This document shows, piece after piece, positions 13,119 to 60,918 of a DNA stretch of 64,000 bases. Within the stretch, counting starts at the first letter, position 1; the number at the start of each line of letters is the position of its first letter. A program made the translations under genes and the position numbers. Source of the DNA: Armatimonadota bacterium (lineage in GTDB: Bacteria > Armatimonadota > Fimbriimonadia > Fimbriimonadales > Fimbriimonadaceae); contig JAFDWU010000002.1 of assembly GCA_018268315.1 (NCBI GenBank), positions 329,638 through 393,637 of the forward strand, in the 5' to 3' direction. The notes beneath the pieces are model-generated. The model was not told the origin of the DNA, did no database searches, and was given only the letters and a program-made list of their open reading frames with translations.

Positions 13119-13147
13119 GCTTGACGGCGCTTAAAGCGCCGTCAAGC
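13119..13147 (-). terminator. Hairpin terminator after the aldo/keto reductase gene
   Basis: A near-perfect inverted repeat (GCTTGACGGCGC, loop TTAAA, then its complement) begins 8 bases beyond the reductase stop codon. The following T-run is weak, but its position and GC-rich 12-bp stem fit an intrinsic terminator. Confidence 0.7.
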
Positions 13148-38029: not shown

Positions 38030-38767
38030 ATGTCTCAGAACCGCCCTGAGGTCTCGGTGATCATGCCGGCCCTCAATGAAGAAAACACCATTCGCGAAGT
38101 TGTTTCGCGAGTGCTGGCGGTTCCTTTGTCCGTCCAGGTCATCGTCATCGATGATGGCAGCACCGACCGAACCCCCGAAATCCTTGCCGAGTTTGGCGAC
38201 AAGATCATATTTCTTCAGAATGCAAAGCCGGGCGGCAAAGGCGCGGCAATCCGCAAGGGCCTTCCTTACGCCACGGGCAAGGTGACCATCATTCAGGACG
38301 CCGATCTTGAATACCTTCCCGAAGAGCTTCCGCAGGTCGTCGCGCCAATACTTTCCGGGCACGAGACGGTGGTTTACGGCACCCGGTTTGCCCATGGCTT
38401 GCCGCCGAAGATGGCTTTGCCGAACAAGATCGTAAACGTGCTGCTGGCGCTTTCCGTGCGCCTGCTCTTCTTCCGGCGGATGACGGACGAGGCGACTTGT
38501 TACAAGGCGTTCAGCACCGACCTGCTGCAAGGAATGGATCTGCAATGCACGCGCTTCGAGTTCTGCCCAGAGGTCACTGCGAAGGCGTTCCGCATGGGGC
38601 AGCATATCGCGGAAGTGCCGATTAGCTACACGCCGCGCACCACCCTTGAAGGCAAGAAGATCAAGTGGACGGATGCGCCTCAGGCGTTTTGGACCCTGTT
38701 CCGATACCGCTTCTGGCGTCCTTCGGCGGATCCTGCTGCCGTTCGGGCCGCTTCGAAAGCCACCTAG
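38030..38767 (+). CDS. Family 2 glycosyltransferase, DPM-like
   Basis: A 245-residue GT-A-fold enzyme resembling dolichol-phosphate mannose synthase-type transferases. SVIMPALNEENTI opens the nucleotide-binding fold, VIDDGSTDRTPEI and the DXD-like QDADLEY bind the sugar nucleotide and metal, and GGKGAAIRKG is typical of the group. There is no C-terminal membrane anchor. It would load a sugar on a polyprenyl carrier for cell-surface glycans. Its stop overlaps the convergent ArsR-like gene by 4 bases. Confidence 0.88.
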   Translation: MSQNRPEVSVIMPALNEENTIREVVSRVLAVPLSVQVIVIDDGSTDRTPEILAEFGDKIIFLQNAKPGGKGAAIRKGLPYATGKVTIIQDADLEYLPEELPQVVAPILSGHETVVYGTRFAHGLPPKMALPNKIVNVLLALSVRLLFFRRMTDEATCYKAFSTDLLQGMDLQCTRFEFCPEVTAKAFRMGQHIAEVPISYTPRTTLEGKKIKWTDAPQAFWTLFRYRFWRPSADPAAVRAASKAT

Positions 38768-39306
38768 TCGGCGGTTAGGCTCGAAATCGCAATCGTCACG
38801 CTGTATTTATTCCCGTCGCCCTGCTGGCGCTCGTGCAGCCAGGCCGTAATTTCGCGAAGCTTTGCGCTCAGTTCTCGCCGCTCATCCTCGCTCAGCATTG
38901 CGGTTAGGCGGAAGAGCGAGCATTCTTCGTCCGCCTTCTGACGGCGGACCTCGATGGCTTTTGCGTACTCCTTTGCGGCCGTGCTCAGCACGGTCGAGAC
39001 GTTCTTAGTGATCTCGCGACGTGTCTGCTCATCTTCGTAGTCCAGCCCCTCCATTCTGCTCGGAGGACCAGCGGCATAAAGAGTCTCCGGCTTTGTTGAG
39101 CCAGGGCGGGCTCCAGACTTTTGGATTAAGCCGACCTCGGTCATCTGGGCCAAGTGGTAGTAGATGAGATGCTCCTCGATACCAAGCCGTGCGGCGATTT
39201 GCGCGGCTGTCAGAGGCTCGCTGCTGCGCAGCAAAGTCAGGAGTTCAATCCGCACTGGATTGTTCAAGGCTCGAAGCTGGCGAAGACCCAAGGGCATTTC
39301 ATTCAT
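38764..39306 (-). CDS. ArsR-like winged-helix transcription regulator
   Basis: A 180-residue regulator. The first 85 residues form a winged helix-turn-helix (LRALNNPVRIELLTLLRSSEPLTAAQIAARLGIEEHLIYYHLAQMTEVGLI), and a helical C-terminal domain with no metal-binding cysteines follows. It is divergent from an aspartyl protease gene. Two inverted repeats fill the 56-base gap, one of them 5 bases before this start codon, so autoregulation is likely. The ligand is unknown. Confidence 0.85.
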   Translation of the reverse strand: MNEMPLGLRQLRALNNPVRIELLTLLRSSEPLTAAQIAARLGIEEHLIYYHLAQMTEVGLIQKSGARPGSTKPETLYAAGPPSRMEGLDYEDEQTRREITKNVSTVLSTAAKEYAKAIEVRRQKADEECSLFRLTAMLSEDERRELSAKLREITAWLHERQQGDGNKYSVTIAISSLTAD

Positions 39307-39311
39307 AAGTT

Positions 39312-39346
39312 TTTCTAATTATTAGAAACTTTCTAGAATTACTAGA
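39312..39346. promoter_or_regulatory. Twin palindromic operators between regulator and protease
   Basis: A perfect 17-base palindrome TTTCTAAT-T-ATTAGAAA (39312-39328) is followed by TCTAG-AATTA-CTAGA (39332-39346), 20 bases centre to centre. Both share a TCTA-type half-site. They sit between divergent genes, one of which encodes a winged-helix regulator. Confidence 0.65.
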
Positions 39347-39362
39347 CGTTCCCCGGTTTAAT

Positions 39363-40205
39363 ATGGTCTTACCCTTCCTTACCCTCGCCCTTTTGTCCCA
39401 ACGCTCTGAGAAGGTTGTTGTGGACCGCGCAACCTGCATTGGCAAGGTCATCGCACCTATTCTTCCCGGCAGGCGTAAAGCGCCGCTGATTGCCGTCAAG
39501 ATTGGCGGAAAACCGTATCGCATGCTTCTGGATACCGGGGGCCAGGGCGGGCGTATTTCGGAAGATGTAGCCAAAGCCCTCGGCCTGCAACCCATCGGAG
39601 AGGTCCGCGCCGGCGATCCGAGCGGCAAGAACTCTCAGCGACTGTTCCTTTACAAGATTCCAGAGATCGTGATTGGTAACGCGCACCTTTACGGCGTGCG
39701 TATGATTGGCTCCAAAGGGCGGGATCATGGAGTTGATTCCGATGGCGTGCTTGGCACGAACGCGTTTGGAGACCTCCTTGTAACCCTTGACTTTCCGCGC
39801 AAGCAGATCGAGATTGAGAATGGGTCGTTGCCGTCCGACTCCATGCCATATCGAGTTCTGAATGGAGTACCCGCGTTGACCGTTGAAGTTGGAAAAGTGA
39901 AGATCGATGCTCACGTTGACTCCGGCTCCGACGGCGGATTGATGATTCCCCTAAGCTATCAGGACCAGCTTCCGTTGGCGGAAAAGCCACATGTCGTTGG
40001 CCATGCCCGTTCCCTGTTCAACGATTTCGATATCTACGCGGCAAAGCTCAATGGCAAAGTTAAGATAGGCGGGGTTCCCTTCGATATAACAACCGTTGAA
40101 ATGCACAATGCCTTCCCGATGGGCAACATCGGCGGGCGTGTTCTCCAGAACTACGCGGTGACGATCGACCGGAAGAACAAGAGAATCCGGTTCAAGAAGG
40201 GCTGA
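39363..40205 (+). CDS. Retropepsin-like aspartyl protease, exported
   Basis: A 280-residue protein with two aspartyl-protease motifs, LLDTGGQG near residue 57 and HVDSGSDG near 180, as in retropepsin-like bacterial proteases in which two lobes are encoded in one chain. The N-terminus is a short hydrophobic leader MVLPFLTLALLSQ without basic residues. It is divergent from an ArsR-like regulator and probably controlled by it. The natural substrate is unknown. Confidence 0.82.
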   Translation: MVLPFLTLALLSQRSEKVVVDRATCIGKVIAPILPGRRKAPLIAVKIGGKPYRMLLDTGGQGGRISEDVAKALGLQPIGEVRAGDPSGKNSQRLFLYKIPEIVIGNAHLYGVRMIGSKGRDHGVDSDGVLGTNAFGDLLVTLDFPRKQIEIENGSLPSDSMPYRVLNGVPALTVEVGKVKIDAHVDSGSDGGLMIPLSYQDQLPLAEKPHVVGHARSLFNDFDIYAAKLNGKVKIGGVPFDITTVEMHNAFPMGNIGGRVLQNYAVTIDRKNKRIRFKKG

Positions 40206-40214
40206 AAGTAAAAA

Positions 40215-40239
40215 GGCCCGTCGGGAAAACCGACGGGCC
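40215..40239. terminator. Bidirectional terminator
   Basis: GGCCCGTCGG and its complement around a GAAAA loop, between two convergent genes. On the minus strand the hairpin is followed by TTTTTAC, so it is strongest for the PEP-CTERM gene. Confidence 0.85.
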
Positions 40240-40266: not shown

Positions 40267-40923
40267 TTAGGAGGATCGCTTGCGGCGAACCAAAGCGGCG
40301 ATGCCCGCGCTAATGGCAATCATCGAAGCCGGCTCGGGGACGGCGCTTCCTCCCTCGAGGTCTACGTTGTCGAGGCCAATGTAATTCGTTCCACCCTTGG
40401 GGCTTGCGCCAATAAAGCTAATGATGGTGGAAGTTCCCGTTGCCACGAAGTCAAGGTCAACTCGGTTATAGGTATTGCTGTTATCAGCAAAGGTATCGTA
40501 GTTCACCTGATCCAGCAGAACCGCCGAAGTAGAGCCATCAACGGCAGTTGCTTCAACACCGGCGTTGCCGGAGTACAGGACCAATCCGCCGTAGTAGTAG
40601 CTGAGGTGATACTTGCCTCCAGCCACCGTAGAAACGGTCTGCGACACACCGCCATAGGGGTAAGCGTCGTGGTAGCCGGTCAGGTCCAGCGAATATGAGC
40701 CGTCCTGTGGAATCACGTAATATGAATTCGTCGCATTGAGCCAAACAAGTTCATTTGAGACCGTGGTCCAACCCGTGATGGCCGTGCTACCGAGGGCAAG
40801 TGAGTCAGCGCCGCCACCATTGTTCTGGAAATCTCCGTTCTCGAACGACCCATTGACAAGAAGATTTGCCGAAGCAAGCGAAGCTACTCCGACAGCCACC
40901 AAGGAAGCCACAAATAAACGCAT
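40267..40923 (-). CDS. PEP-CTERM sorting-domain surface protein
   Basis: A 218-residue exported protein. A signal peptide (MRLFVASLVAVGVASLASA) precedes a beta-rich domain of about 170 residues that begins NLLVNGSFENGDF, as in DUF642-like carbohydrate-binding modules. The end is VPEPASM, a hydrophobic helix and RRKRSS, the PEP-CTERM sorting signal cut by an exosortase. No exosortase gene is in the window. It probably belongs to the cell surface or a secreted matrix. Confidence 0.9.
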   Translation of the reverse strand: MRLFVASLVAVGVASLASANLLVNGSFENGDFQNNGGGADSLALGSTAITGWTTVSNELVWLNATNSYYVIPQDGSYSLDLTGYHDAYPYGGVSQTVSTVAGGKYHLSYYYGGLVLYSGNAGVEATAVDGSTSAVLLDQVNYDTFADNSNTYNRVDLDFVATGTSTIISFIGASPKGGTNYIGLDNVDLEGGSAVPEPASMIAISAGIAALVRRKRSS

Positions 40924-40992: not shown

Positions 40993-41490
40993 TTAAGACT
41001 CGTTTCCGGTTCGAAGAAGTTGCTTCAAGTGTTCAGAATATAACGTTAGGGCTTCTCGGCACCGCTGGATGCGCCAGTTCAAATCGTCGCGGTCGTTGGC
41101 TAGCAACTCCCACAAGGTTGGCGAAACCACCAACGCCTCGAACGCATCCGTGCCAAGCCCACGATAGCGTAGGCCCATGGCGGCATCCGTTGAACTGTAT
41201 CGCAGATAGGCGACCACGTACGGCTGGATACAACCATAGTTGGCATCGAAGCGCTTCTGGCAAACCTTGTAAGCAATTCCTAGCCGCTCGTCTTCGCCGA
41301 GTTCGTCGGACATCTGGATGACATCTACCAAGTCCTCAAAATTCCTGAAGAACCTCAACAACTCTTCCTGCCGCGTTTGAATGAGCTCGGGGTCGGTGCG
41401 ATACGGGTCACCAGCCAGCGAGCCCTTCAGCCAATTTGCGGCTTTCCCTGTAATTTCAAGCGCGGCTTTCACCGGTTTGGAACGATCCAT
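40993..41490 (-). CDS. Hypothetical helical protein, 165 aa
   Basis: Not recognised. A soluble, mostly helical protein (NFEDLVDVIQMSDELGEDERLGIAYKVCQKRF), with no signal peptide or membrane helix. Its ATG overlaps the stop of the DUF1844 gene by one base (TAATG), so it is translationally coupled to that gene and to pafA upstream. A role in the same process is inferred only from this linkage. Confidence 0.7.
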   Translation of the reverse strand: MDRSKPVKAALEITGKAANWLKGSLAGDPYRTDPELIQTRQEELLRFFRNFEDLVDVIQMSDELGEDERLGIAYKVCQKRFDANYGCIQPYVVAYLRYSSTDAAMGLRYRGLGTDAFEALVVSPTLWELLANDRDDLNWRIQRCREALTLYSEHLKQLLRTGNES

Positions 41491-41774
41491 TAGCTTTGAC
41501 CCCCAGATTTCTGAACGTAGTTGAGACGAAGATCGCGGATGAGGTTCTGAACTTCCCGCCGGTCACTTTCATCGAGCTTCCCCTCAAGATGCTTAGCAAG
41601 ATCGACGGTGACGTCGATGGCGACTTTCGCCTGGGCGAAATCGGCGTGTATGGTTCCCGTGATGAGGTCGGGCTGCAAGCCGAGCTTCTGCCATGCGATG
41701 GAGGCAGACTGCTCCAACATCATCATCAAGACTTGGAAGAAATCAATGGGTTCCTTCTCGGTTTGATCTGCCAT
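41490..41774 (-). CDS. DUF1844 protein with a Pup-like C-terminal tail
   Basis: A 94-residue protein whose body (EPIDFFQVLMMMLEQSASIAWQKLGL) and helical end match DUF1844, a family without a known reaction. The C-terminus reads LRLNYVQKSGGQS. This resembles the YVQKGGQ end of mycobacterial Pup, though it carries two extra serines and the rest of the protein is not Pup-like. It is immediately downstream of the pafA-type ligase and coupled to the next gene. The ATG at 41774 is preferred over a TTG 10 codons upstream. Confidence 0.78.
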   Translation of the reverse strand: MADQTEKEPIDFFQVLMMMLEQSASIAWQKLGLQPDLITGTIHADFAQAKVAIDVTVDLAKHLEGKLDESDRREVQNLIRDLRLNYVQKSGGQS

Positions 41775-41810
41775 GCACTGGTAATAACGGGCCAGCAGGC
41801 TCAAACGAAG

Positions 41811-43286
41811 CTAGTTTTCGTGCGCGTAGGTCTCATAGGGGTCAGGCATATCGTAAACATGGCTTCCGATAACCACCCCGTTCCAGTCGATGAGATAATC
41901 CCTCGGACCCTTAGGTTTCGCCACCTTTTCAACCAGCTTCGCGCGACCCTTTGCGCGCGTATCTTGGGGCGGATCGGTCATCGCGGTAACGATGTCCATT
42001 TCGCTTACCACGCGCTTGGTTTCGCCCATCTCTTGCAGAGCGTAGAACAGCCCTTCGGCGGGGTCGATGTTGTGATATTCGAGGTCAACCGAGTGGAGGG
42101 CGTCGTCGCTCCAGTCGGTACCCGCGTCTTCGATGTACTGCTCCACCACCCGCTTCTTGGCGACCCAGTCGATGCGGTCCCCAAGCTCGAGCGGGTTCTT
42201 CTCAAGGCCGTCGAGGATCGACTCCCATTCCGCCAGCACCCAGTTAGTCTGTTCACTTTCGCCTTTGTAGGCATCGGTTGCCAGCTTCAGATAGATTCGC
42301 TGGACGTCCACCGCCCGGATGGTGACGCCGTCCGCCATCATCACAAGCCACTTGTATTCCGGGTCGCGGCTAACCTCACGCAGGGCAATCAGCGGCTGCG
42401 CAAGCACGAGGTCAGGCGGAACAAGGCCATCTTGCAGCAACCTGATTACCAGCGCGGTCGTGCCGACCTTGAGGGCATACGCGTACTCGTTCTGGTTCCC
42501 TTCGCCGAACAGAAGGTGCAAACGGGTCATGCCGTCGTTGCTGTAGAAATGCTCCCACTTGGGGTTGATCAGGGCGCGGTTGAATCGCACCCTCGTGGCC
42601 AGGGTTTTGATGATGTGATCCGCGCGTTGGCTTAGCTGGAAATGGATGCGGTCATCGGCAATCACGTTGTAAACGTTGCTCACCCAGATGTAATCCACTG
42701 GGTTTGCGTTCATTTCGTCGATGTTCGGGCGTCCGCCCGCGGTGAGGATATGCCCGCCAACGCGGCCAACTCCGGCAAATATCTGCCGGGTTACAAGGAA
42801 CGGATAGAACTGGAAGACCTGGAGGTTGTAGAACTCGTCCGAAGCGTAGATTTGATAGTTCTCGTGGCAGCCAAAGGTGTGCCCGCTGAAGTGATCGACG
42901 CTGTTGTTGTAAACCCGTACGCCCTCGCTTAGCCCAAGCTCTTTGATGGCTCTCACAATGTGGCGCTGCCCGGCACGGTCGTTGGCCACAAGGTCTTTAA
43001 GCTGGCGGCACTCGGCGGTCGCGTATTCAAGGTGGCTGCCGACGGCGTCGATATAGAGCCGCGCGCCGTTCATCAGGAAGCCGCCCGCTTGGGCGGGCTC
43101 GAAGACCATGTCGCGGGAGTGCATGTCGATCGCGCCGATGCGCGATTCAAAGAAAAGGTGGTCCTTGATCGCCTCGACGGCCTGTTCGGGGTTTCTGATC
43201 TTGCTGCCGGAGGCGGCAAGCGCTTCGTCATCGACCAGGCAACCGAATTCCGTTTCAACCCCGAAGATGCCTGATCCGTGCTTCAC
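41811..43286 (-). CDS. pafA: PafA-type Pup/UBact protein ligase
   Basis: A 491-residue carboxylate-amine ligase of the Pup ligase/depupylase family. The first strand carries GVETEFG, with the nucleotide-binding Glu. MNGARLYID, SHLEYATAEC and GCHENYQIY follow, and SQRADHI, NEYAYALKVGT and DPPQDTRAKGR mark the C-terminal half. ETEFG and ATAEC are more like PafA than Dop. In such systems the enzyme attaches a small modifier through its C-terminal Gly-Gly-Glu to lysines, marking proteins for a proteasome. No modifier, Mpa or proteasome subunit gene is in the window. GTG start. Confidence 0.88.
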   Translation of the reverse strand: MKHGSGIFGVETEFGCLVDDEALAASGSKIRNPEQAVEAIKDHLFFESRIGAIDMHSRDMVFEPAQAGGFLMNGARLYIDAVGSHLEYATAECRQLKDLVANDRAGQRHIVRAIKELGLSEGVRVYNNSVDHFSGHTFGCHENYQIYASDEFYNLQVFQFYPFLVTRQIFAGVGRVGGHILTAGGRPNIDEMNANPVDYIWVSNVYNVIADDRIHFQLSQRADHIIKTLATRVRFNRALINPKWEHFYSNDGMTRLHLLFGEGNQNEYAYALKVGTTALVIRLLQDGLVPPDLVLAQPLIALREVSRDPEYKWLVMMADGVTIRAVDVQRIYLKLATDAYKGESEQTNWVLAEWESILDGLEKNPLELGDRIDWVAKKRVVEQYIEDAGTDWSDDALHSVDLEYHNIDPAEGLFYALQEMGETKRVVSEMDIVTAMTDPPQDTRAKGRAKLVEKVAKPKGPRDYLIDWNGVVIGSHVYDMPDPYETYAHEN

Positions 43287-60344: not shown

Positions 60345-60918
60345 TCACTGCTCCATTAATCGTAATCCCTTTTGCCACCGCAAGTTCCCAAAGCGCCTTC
60401 TGAAGTAAGCGACGGCCACGGTGCAACCGCGATCGCACGGTACCGATCGGCACCTCCAGCACTTCGGCAATCTCCTGGTAGGGCGATTCTTCCAGAAAGT
60501 AGAGCGAGCAGGCCGTCCTGAATTCATCCGGCAATGTGTCGATGGCGGCGGCAATCTCCTCCACCCCAAGCTTATTCATCAGAACGGAGGCGGGATTCTG
60601 ATCATCCTCTTCGATGCCGTTCTCCAGCATCTTACGGGCGATGTAGGCTTCCTCAACTTCGTCAAACGCAACCTGAACCGCCCTTGCCGCCCGCTGACGG
60701 TCCTTCAAGAACTTGTTGGTGAGGATGCGCAGCAGCCAAGCTTTGAAATTCGTGCCCGGCGTGAAGTTCTCGAAGTGGCGGTAGGCCAGCACGACGGCGT
60801 CTTGGACCAAATCCATGGCCGATTCAGAGTCGCGCGTGAGGCGCAGGGCATAGCGGTAGGCTAGGTCCACCACCGGCTCAAGCTCCCGGTCAAATCGCTC
60901 TCTTAATGTTTGATCCAT
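60337..60918 (-). CDS. ECF RNA polymerase sigma factor
   Basis: A 193-residue sigma-70 family protein of the ECF type: region 2 (DLVQDAVVLAYRHFENF, GTNFKAWLLRILTNKFL) and region 4 (YFLEESPYQEIAEVLEVPIGTVRSRLHRGRRLLQKAL, cited by its ends). The linker is long and acidic (ENGIEEDDQNPAS). Together with the downstream ZAS protein it forms a typical sigma/anti-sigma pair, possibly a redox-stress unit because msrA is convergent to it. Confidence 0.93.
   Translation of the reverse strand: MDQTLRERFDRELEPVVDLAYRYALRLTRDSESAMDLVQDAVVLAYRHFENFTPGTNFKAWLLRILTNKFLKDRQRAARAVQVAFDEVEEAYIARKMLENGIEEDDQNPASVLMNKLGVEEIAAAIDTLPDEFRTACSLYFLEESPYQEIAEVLEVPIGTVRSRLHRGRRLLQKALWELAVAKGITINGAVNA

Follow-up and report, generated by a model that had tools for sequence, protein, structure and literature searches.

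A covarying dyad across an ECF-type promoter-like motif between an ArsR-like regulator gene and a divergent aspartyl protease gene in Armatimonadota: a candidate dedicated repressor switch

An operator-like dyad overlaps a promoter-like motif of the ECF sigma type in the 56 bp that separate a gene for an ArsR-like winged-helix regulator from a divergent gene for an aspartyl protease, within the 64-kb stretch of Armatimonadota DNA studied here (hereafter the window). We consider it probable, on balance, that the regulator is a dedicated autorepressor and shuts off an ECF-type promoter of the exported hydrolase, one with almost no leader. The components are each of a known kind; what is new is how they are arranged and that the arrangement recurs with various exported enzymes, for which no description was found. 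In particular, a literature search at the level of records returned no account of an ArsR-family regulator divergent from an aspartic protease.

A regulator gene facing the gene of an exported hydrolase

The regulator gene (38764-39306, minus strand) encodes 180 aa that match HTH_20 (PF12840, E 1.2e-11) with 44.8 bits for a cut-off of 27, and PF01022 with 35.4 bits for a cut-off of 22 (E 9.9e-9). With HTH_5 and HTH_20 scores above the curated cut-offs, the protein belongs to the ArsR-type winged-helix regulators. Against the curated metalloregulator model NF033788 it scored 34.1 bits, under the cut-off of 55. In ArsR/SmtB metalloregulators, the sets of metal ligands lie in helix 3 or helix 5, and sites made of His, Asp and Glu only are possible. 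Our regulator has a single cysteine, C129, and none within the HTH region, so that the label "metal-free" given in a first-pass annotation of the same DNA appears compatible with its sequence. The AlphaFold model (pLDDT 93.9) was matched over its full length by structure 4g6q (Z 15.1, rmsd 3.5, 169 aligned of 177 residues).

The facing gene (39363-40205, plus strand) encodes 280 aa with a hydrophobic N-terminus and two stretches that match PF13650 (E 8.2e-16). D57, in a DTG triad, and D186, in a DSG triad, are invariant among the 8 homologues aligned, and the presence of D-T/S-G in each half points to a clan AA aspartyl peptidase. The protein had been called retropepsin-like. It does look like a clan AA aspartyl protease, but the term is only loosely right, because the predicted model (pLDDT 87.7) has two lobes in a single chain. 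Retropepsins of family A2 have one lobe per chain and work only as homodimers; the model instead matches two-lobed enzymes over its full length. Its closest structure is 9iy9, a putative endopeptidase of Bacteroides fragilis (Z 21.2, rmsd 4.3, 270 aligned), followed by pepsins at Z 15-17, and tethered-dimer HIV proteases were among the Foldseek matches. Downstream, a terminator-like hairpin (40215-40239) lies between the protease gene and a convergent DUF642/PEP-CTERM gene (40267-40923); shuffled sequences gave 2.2 such hairpins per region. Further on, a DUF1844 gene (41490-41804) adjoins a gene of the Pup-ligase family (41811-43286, PF03136, E 1.3e-123), likely part of a pupylation system.

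In the 85 genomes of the family that were searched, with protease homologues taken at E 4.8e-38 or better, 8 close full-length homologues were found at 6 loci of 5 genomes, all Fimbriimonadaceae-like Armatimonadota: two loci in the window's own genome (G000), one each in G018, G020 and G059, and one in G044. The last (L049:4889-7578) carries three tandem copies on one strand, behind one divergent regulator. A gene for a regulator related to ours stands divergent to the protease gene at each of the 6 loci; in G044 it faces the first of the three copies. Longest ORFs are 51-78 bp apart, except in G044, where that of the protease crosses the gap and the distance is 0. The divergent pairing of the two genes is thus kept in relatives. 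Left out of this count were G012, with a protease remnant of 88 aa, and G030, with a relative of 31% identity; for both, the scanned stretches contained no regulator of this kind. Phylum-wide (291 genomes), the remaining protease matches were in open frames of 364-735 aa. The flanks, mostly 1.5 kb, of 29 distinct places with a protease homologue (33 loci with repeats) contained the regulator once, at the second pair of G000.

Relatives of the regulator face other enzymes. Matches to the regulator at E <=1e-8 numbered 66, of which 51 entered a first analysis and the other 15 were examined later. By ORF alone, 28 of the 51 were divergent from a neighbour at less than 140 bp; 25 were retained and three (G034, G045 and G068) set aside by judgement, the first two because the neighbouring ORF appeared spurious. 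Exclusion of G068 (L012) was unjustified, since Pfam shows its neighbour to be a genuine gene: there, a regulator of the other clade described below faces a PF04655 phosphotransferase gene (aminoglycoside/hydroxyurea kinase-like) at 75 bp, with no significant dyad (p 0.54) and no promoter motif in between. All three were counted among the 26 controls of the dyad test and the 28 controls of the promoter motif. Two members of the 25, G049C5 and G069C81, also have regulators of the other clade and are divergent to PF13354 proteins; in the test of the promoter motif they were placed among the 28 controls.

Partners at the 25 divergent loci are 6 aspartyl proteases (PF13650), 13 beta-lactamase-like proteins (PF00144), 2 PF13354 proteins, 1 trypsin, 2 redoxin-like proteins and 1 DUF3291 protein. 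The PF13650 assignment was made by Pfam for our protease, for G000C6, for G020 and for one of the tandem copies of G044, and by alignment for the others. The later 15 rows added two divergent loci at less than 140 bp, G027, where the partner is a PF00144 protein, and G001C11, where the gap is 120 bp, the first 60 residues of the partner had no Pfam match and the regulator is among the non-module rows. The annotation had called a dedicated repressor for such a protease unusual. A dedicated-looking pairing is indeed kept, but the description was too narrow, as related regulators face PF00144 proteins, a trypsin, redoxins and a DUF3291 protein.

A tree of the 51 rows split with support 100/100 into 25 rows, 23 of them divergent, and 26 rows, 24 of them not counted as divergent. 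In a tree of all 66, which took in the 15 weaker rows, module rows were scattered (6 changes), and 26 of the 28 other rows formed one clade (100/99) together with 5 added rows. This tree does not bear out a single clade of module regulators, so "the 23" is used below as a label taken from the 51-row tree. All partners of this set (23/23) and none of the regulators (0/23) have a strongly hydrophobic stretch within residues 1-45, with the proviso that the stretch of the DUF3291 partner derives from a probably over-long start. Five aspartyl-protease regulators formed a clade in the 51-row tree (100/98), and the regulator of the second pair of G000 grouped with redoxin regulators (98/91). Both groupings persisted with 66 rows. 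As the second pair's regulator sits with redoxin regulators, the pairing of regulator and protease arose or changed at least twice.

The window's own genome holds seven such modules: two with an aspartyl protease, three with a PF00144 protein, one with a redoxin-like protein and one with the DUF3291 protein. Of its 13 PF00144 matches, 3 are direct partners. At G000:C1:281191-285471, three PF00144 genes follow one another on one strand, first a module partner and then, within 4 kb of it, two more, a tandem growth like that of the protease copies of G044.

A dyad that takes one half from each palindrome

The gap extends from the regulator start at 39306 to the protease start at 39363 and is 71% A+T. 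As annotated, it contains a perfect 17-base palindrome, TTTCTAATTATTAGAAA, that is TTTCTAAT-T-ATTAGAAA (39312-39328, centre 39320), separated from the regulator ATG by exactly 5 bases, and a second 5+5 palindrome, TCTAG-AATTA-CTAGA (TCTAG-N5-CTAGA; 39332-39346, centre 39339). The distance between centres is 19 bp and not the 20 first given. Thus the palindromes are real, and their description needs correction. When the 56-bp gap was shuffled 3000 times by dinucleotides, 16 shuffles gave a palindrome like the first (8-bp arms, loop of at most 1). Arms of at least 5 with a loop of at most 5, as in the second, occurred in 1427 of 3000, for which reason palindrome 2 carries no meaning by itself. 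Of the two, only palindrome 1 is improbable as chance. The gap also contains five TCTA/TAGA words, a count that 3 of the 3000 shuffles reached. The whole window has just 4 palindromes whose arms are 8 or longer and whose loop is at most 1. A perfect 29-bp palindrome with 14-bp arms (GCTTGACGGCGCTTAAAGCGCCGTCAAGC) lies at 13119-13147, between two ORFs of the same strand, and may be a terminator or an operator. The 2.8-Mb genome, of which the window is G000:C2:329638-393637, has the exact 17-mer of palindrome 1 once. Allowing up to 3 mismatches adds one place, compared with 5 on each strand for the reversed control.

These figures bear on the reading of the gap as two independent operators, each palindrome (centres 39320 and 39339) bound by one dimer, the two dimers cooperating over an ordinary housekeeping promoter. 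In its favour are the perfection of palindrome 1, improbable as chance, and the excess of TCTA/TAGA half-sites. Relatives with the same gene pair set it back: neither palindrome is retained in the other five protease gaps, the closest relative G018 included, palindrome 1 is not palindromic there, and another register is kept. Nor was a sigma-70-type promoter found between 38700 and 40300, an absence that says little, as shuffles yield just 0.7 on average. We regard two cooperating operators as unlikely.

The register that is kept is fixed by a core shared between loci. This core, [AT]AGTT, is present upstream of the regulators at 17 of the 25 loci with divergent genes, and 12 of the 17 have it 20-26 bp ahead of the start. 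The arms around the core vary from locus to locus and yet mirror each other, with N12 between them: ATTCTAGA-N12-ATTAGAAA at our locus, AATCTAAA-N12-CTTAGAAA in G018, AATTCAAA-N12-TTTGAATA in G019, AATTTGAA-N12-TTCGAATT in G044C72 and AATTAAAG-N12-ATTTAATT in G049. At our locus this register reads, in regulator sense, ATTCTAGA-AAGTTTCTAATA-ATTAGAAA (39312-39339, minus strand) and joins the outer arm of palindrome 1 to the near arm of palindrome 2, TTTCTAAT (39312-39319) being paired with TCTAGAAT (39332-39339). The conserved site is probably a single imperfect dyad of 23-28 bp, half of it from each palindrome, rather than two independent operators.

Covariation of the arms was measured with the register set by the core alone, right arms being redealt among the 17 loci in 20000 permutations. 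Matching arm pairs numbered 82 of 136 over the 17 loci, for a permuted mean of 58.1 (sd 4.8), and no permutation (0/20000) reached 82. By spacer, the signal peaked at 12, followed by 13 (26/20000), and the observed values at the other spacers from 7 to 17 were reached by at least 631 of 20000. After removal of G081 and G049C5, in which the core is not between the arms, 2 of 20000 reached the observed value. A free dyad search compared with shuffles gave a combined p of 2.5e-4 for the 25 divergent loci, versus 0.99 for the 26 other regulators; adding the three divergent loci that had been set aside gave 4.6e-4.

Our own locus is no proof of the conserved register when taken alone, because its best free dyad matches at 6/8 with a p of 0.79 against shuffles. 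In the conserved register just 5 of 8 arm pairs match, and the perfect palindrome 1 suggests a different centre. Of the 23 loci, 7 gave no AGTT core within the range searched, and G081 has its core elsewhere than between the arms. With as many as 3 mismatches allowed, the pattern TCTARAAAGTTYCN6TTAGA has a single match in the genome, our site, and its reversed control has 6. Thus an operator-like site does lie between the genes, as annotated, and it is unique in the genome at that tolerance; the twin arrangement is the part that is probably wrong, since the conserved site spans half of each palindrome.

Striking dyads stand in two other gaps. That of G000C5 is TATCTGGTGTAAA-N10-TTTACACCAGATA. 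In G081 (L008), the gap between regulator and trypsin-like gene has perfect inverted arms of 16 bases each with 12 bases between them, and one arm contains a start codon of the trypsin-like gene; together they read as one large symmetric control site. G027, which was found after the model had been formed, has GTCAAA-N12-TTTGAC around an AAGTTTC core. Similarity between operators tracks overall similarity between regulators (r 0.19, 39/5000). An extra signal from the recognition helix was not detected by a partial Mantel test (partial r 0.06, 1214/5000), a weak test here, because automatic placement of the dyad set at least two loci, ours and G044C73, at other centres.

It could be that the palindromes are chance structure of an AT-rich 56-bp gap, which its base composition and the insignificance of palindrome 2 alone would allow. 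Given the covariation of the arms and the dyads across loci, we hold this to be very improbable. A symmetric, covarying site between divergent genes is what the operator of an autorepressor would look like, and the regulator is the protein expected to bind it.

A promoter-like motif across the dyad

Read in the direction of the partner gene, the asymmetric dyad core AAGTTCC becomes GGAACT, or GAAACT at our locus, and resembles the -35 of a promoter of the ECF sigma type, GRAAC-N17/18-NGTT. The putative -35 of the protease gene is GAAACT (39325-39330, plus strand; GGAACT in several relatives). The putative -10, CGTT (39347-39350, plus strand), begins 16 bases past it and ends 12 bases before the protease ATG. 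The spacer is then 39331-39346, and palindrome 2 fills the last 15 of its 16 bases.

The motif recurs. CGT follows the 7-mer core at 15-16 bases in 8 of 17 loci, a number reached in 0 of 5000 shuffles and 0 of 5000 rotations. GRAAC-N17/18-NGTT in partner sense occurs at 11 of the 23 loci (shuffle mean 0.12, maximum 2; 0/400 reach 11) and near none of the 28 other regulators, with the caveat that it was first spotted on the very loci later tested. The strict form GGAACT-N16/17-CGTT is present at 4 of 23 loci, for a shuffle mean of 0.01. The remaining 12 of the 23 lack GRAAC-N17/18-NGTT, and so does the later-found G027. A slightly broader motif is present at 12 of 23; for the 11 with a reported frame, an in-frame partner ATG lies 8-12 nt downstream in 8 loci and 32-48 nt downstream in 3. 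The short distance in those 8 suggests very short or absent leaders. In regulator sense, GRAAC-N17/18-NGTT is found at 5 of 23 loci, ours included (GGAAC-N17-AGTT, 39327-39352, minus strand). These would be opposing, overlapping promoters, and the possible one at our locus overlaps the protease motif and is less well supported.

The same words may have a different meaning, GGAACT...CGTT being an additional part of the regulator's binding site or the site of a second regulator, with transcription from an unrecognised promoter. Genome-wide, neither GGAACTTN{14,17}CGTT (7 versus 9 in the control) nor GGAACTN{16,17}CGTT (9 versus 31) is enriched, and the motifs of our locus and G049 end in GTTCC, the reverse complement of GGAAC. 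Such an ending is lacking in 9 of the 11 motifs, however, an in-frame ATG lies 8-12 nt past the motif in 8 loci, and the motif equals, with the same spacing, the ECF consensus given in the part of the published work that we consulted (PMC10012870). A non-promoter role seems rather unlikely to us, and we continue to favour an ECF-type promoter. The 9 genome-wide matches to the second pattern include the second protease pair. With neither pattern enriched, a wider sigma regulon is not visible, and a wide ECF regulon was dropped as a proposal. Sigma70_r2 matches number 21 in the genome, and one such protein is encoded within the window (60682-60870, minus strand, in a 197-aa frame; G000:C2:390319-390507).

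The position of the dyad also bears on the direction of control. Some ArsR-type proteins activate (HlyU, for example, is called an activator by its depositors), and our regulator could likewise activate the hydrolase gene. The site overlies the -35 and the spacer instead of lying upstream of the -35, and an operator over the -35 and spacer is in a position typical of repressors. Activation is in our estimate quite improbable, and repression is retained below.

A candidate switch and its likeness to known systems

We propose that the regulator, a winged-helix protein acting as a dimer, is an autorepressor devoted to the adjoining protease gene. A dimer would bind the imperfect dyad of roughly 24-28 bp at 39312-39339, the core of which is also the -35 of GAAACT-N16-CGTT (GGAACT-N16/17-CGTT in four relatives), and this promoter would yield an almost leaderless transcript for the exported aspartyl protease. 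Once bound, the dimer would cover the -35, the upstream part of the spacer and the bases immediately ahead of the start of the regulator gene. With a dimer over the -35, RNA polymerase carrying an ECF sigma factor would be kept off the promoter, and both genes would be shut until an inducer binds. Sensing of the inducer, which would lead to release, would probably fall to the helical part at the C-terminus of the regulator. Expression of the protease would then need both the ECF sigma factor and release of the repressor.

The same cassette may be reused around other exported hydrolases, with different half-sites. More tentatively, and with clear reservations, we suggest a lineage-specific plug-in cassette in which an operator is built around an ECF -35, so that production of a hydrolase would require both an active envelope-type sigma factor and a specific inducer. 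It would have been copied and re-fitted with an aspartyl protease (twice), beta-lactamase-like hydrolases, a trypsin and a redoxin, half-sites changing along with it such that seven copies work in one genome without cross-talk.

If this is true, these little-studied Armatimonadota run exported hydrolases through many parallel specific repressors on top of one type of stress promoter. Paralogous repressor-operator pairs would then occur together in one genome, a natural series in which to study how specificity diverges. Promoters and near-leaderless starts would become testable predictions for Armatimonadota, a phylum for which no promoter map was among the matches listed. The scheme would also give a route to the signals that switch on bacterial pepsin-like and beta-lactamase-like enzymes.

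As to known systems, the part consulted of an account of Corynebacterium glutamicum describes SigE/SigH promoters as GGAAC-N17-18-cGTT, for instance GGAACT-N16-CGTT, some of those listed being very near the start codon (PMC10012870). The -35 and -10 words and their spacing are identical to those of our loci with the strict motif. Our own locus has the spacing, as GAAAC-N17-CGTT, but its -35 word is GAAAC where several relatives have GGAAC, and here an operator-like dyad overlaps the motif. RloA proteins, bacterial retropepsin-like proteases, belong to clan AA and are secreted, as our protease would be, but are homodimers according to the part of the report consulted (PMC12239564), whereas our protease is predicted to have both lobes in one chain.

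The modelled regulator shares its whole-length fold with Kfla_6221 of Kribbella flavida, a protein of unknown function (PDB 4g6q), at an identity of about 13%. To our knowledge, Kfla_6221 has no known target. With ArsR/SmtB repressors our regulator shares the HTH_5/HTH_20 domain and a dyad near the regulator start codon; it differs in being longer, with a helical C-terminal part, in scoring under the metalloregulator cut-off and in having one cysteine.

A similar arrangement is that of the BlaI/MecI penicillinase repressors, small winged-helix dimers encoded divergently from an exported hydrolase, which repress both genes through dyad operators. A winged-helix gene facing an exported hydrolase gene with a dyad site between them is common to both systems, and repression would be the further likeness. 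The DNA-binding family differs: ours is PF12840, and PF03965, which we take to be the Penicillinase_R domain of BlaI/MecI, was absent from the 22 Pfam families listed at E <=1, setting the regulator apart from BlaI/MecI. In our system, moreover, the site overlies a putative ECF-type promoter.
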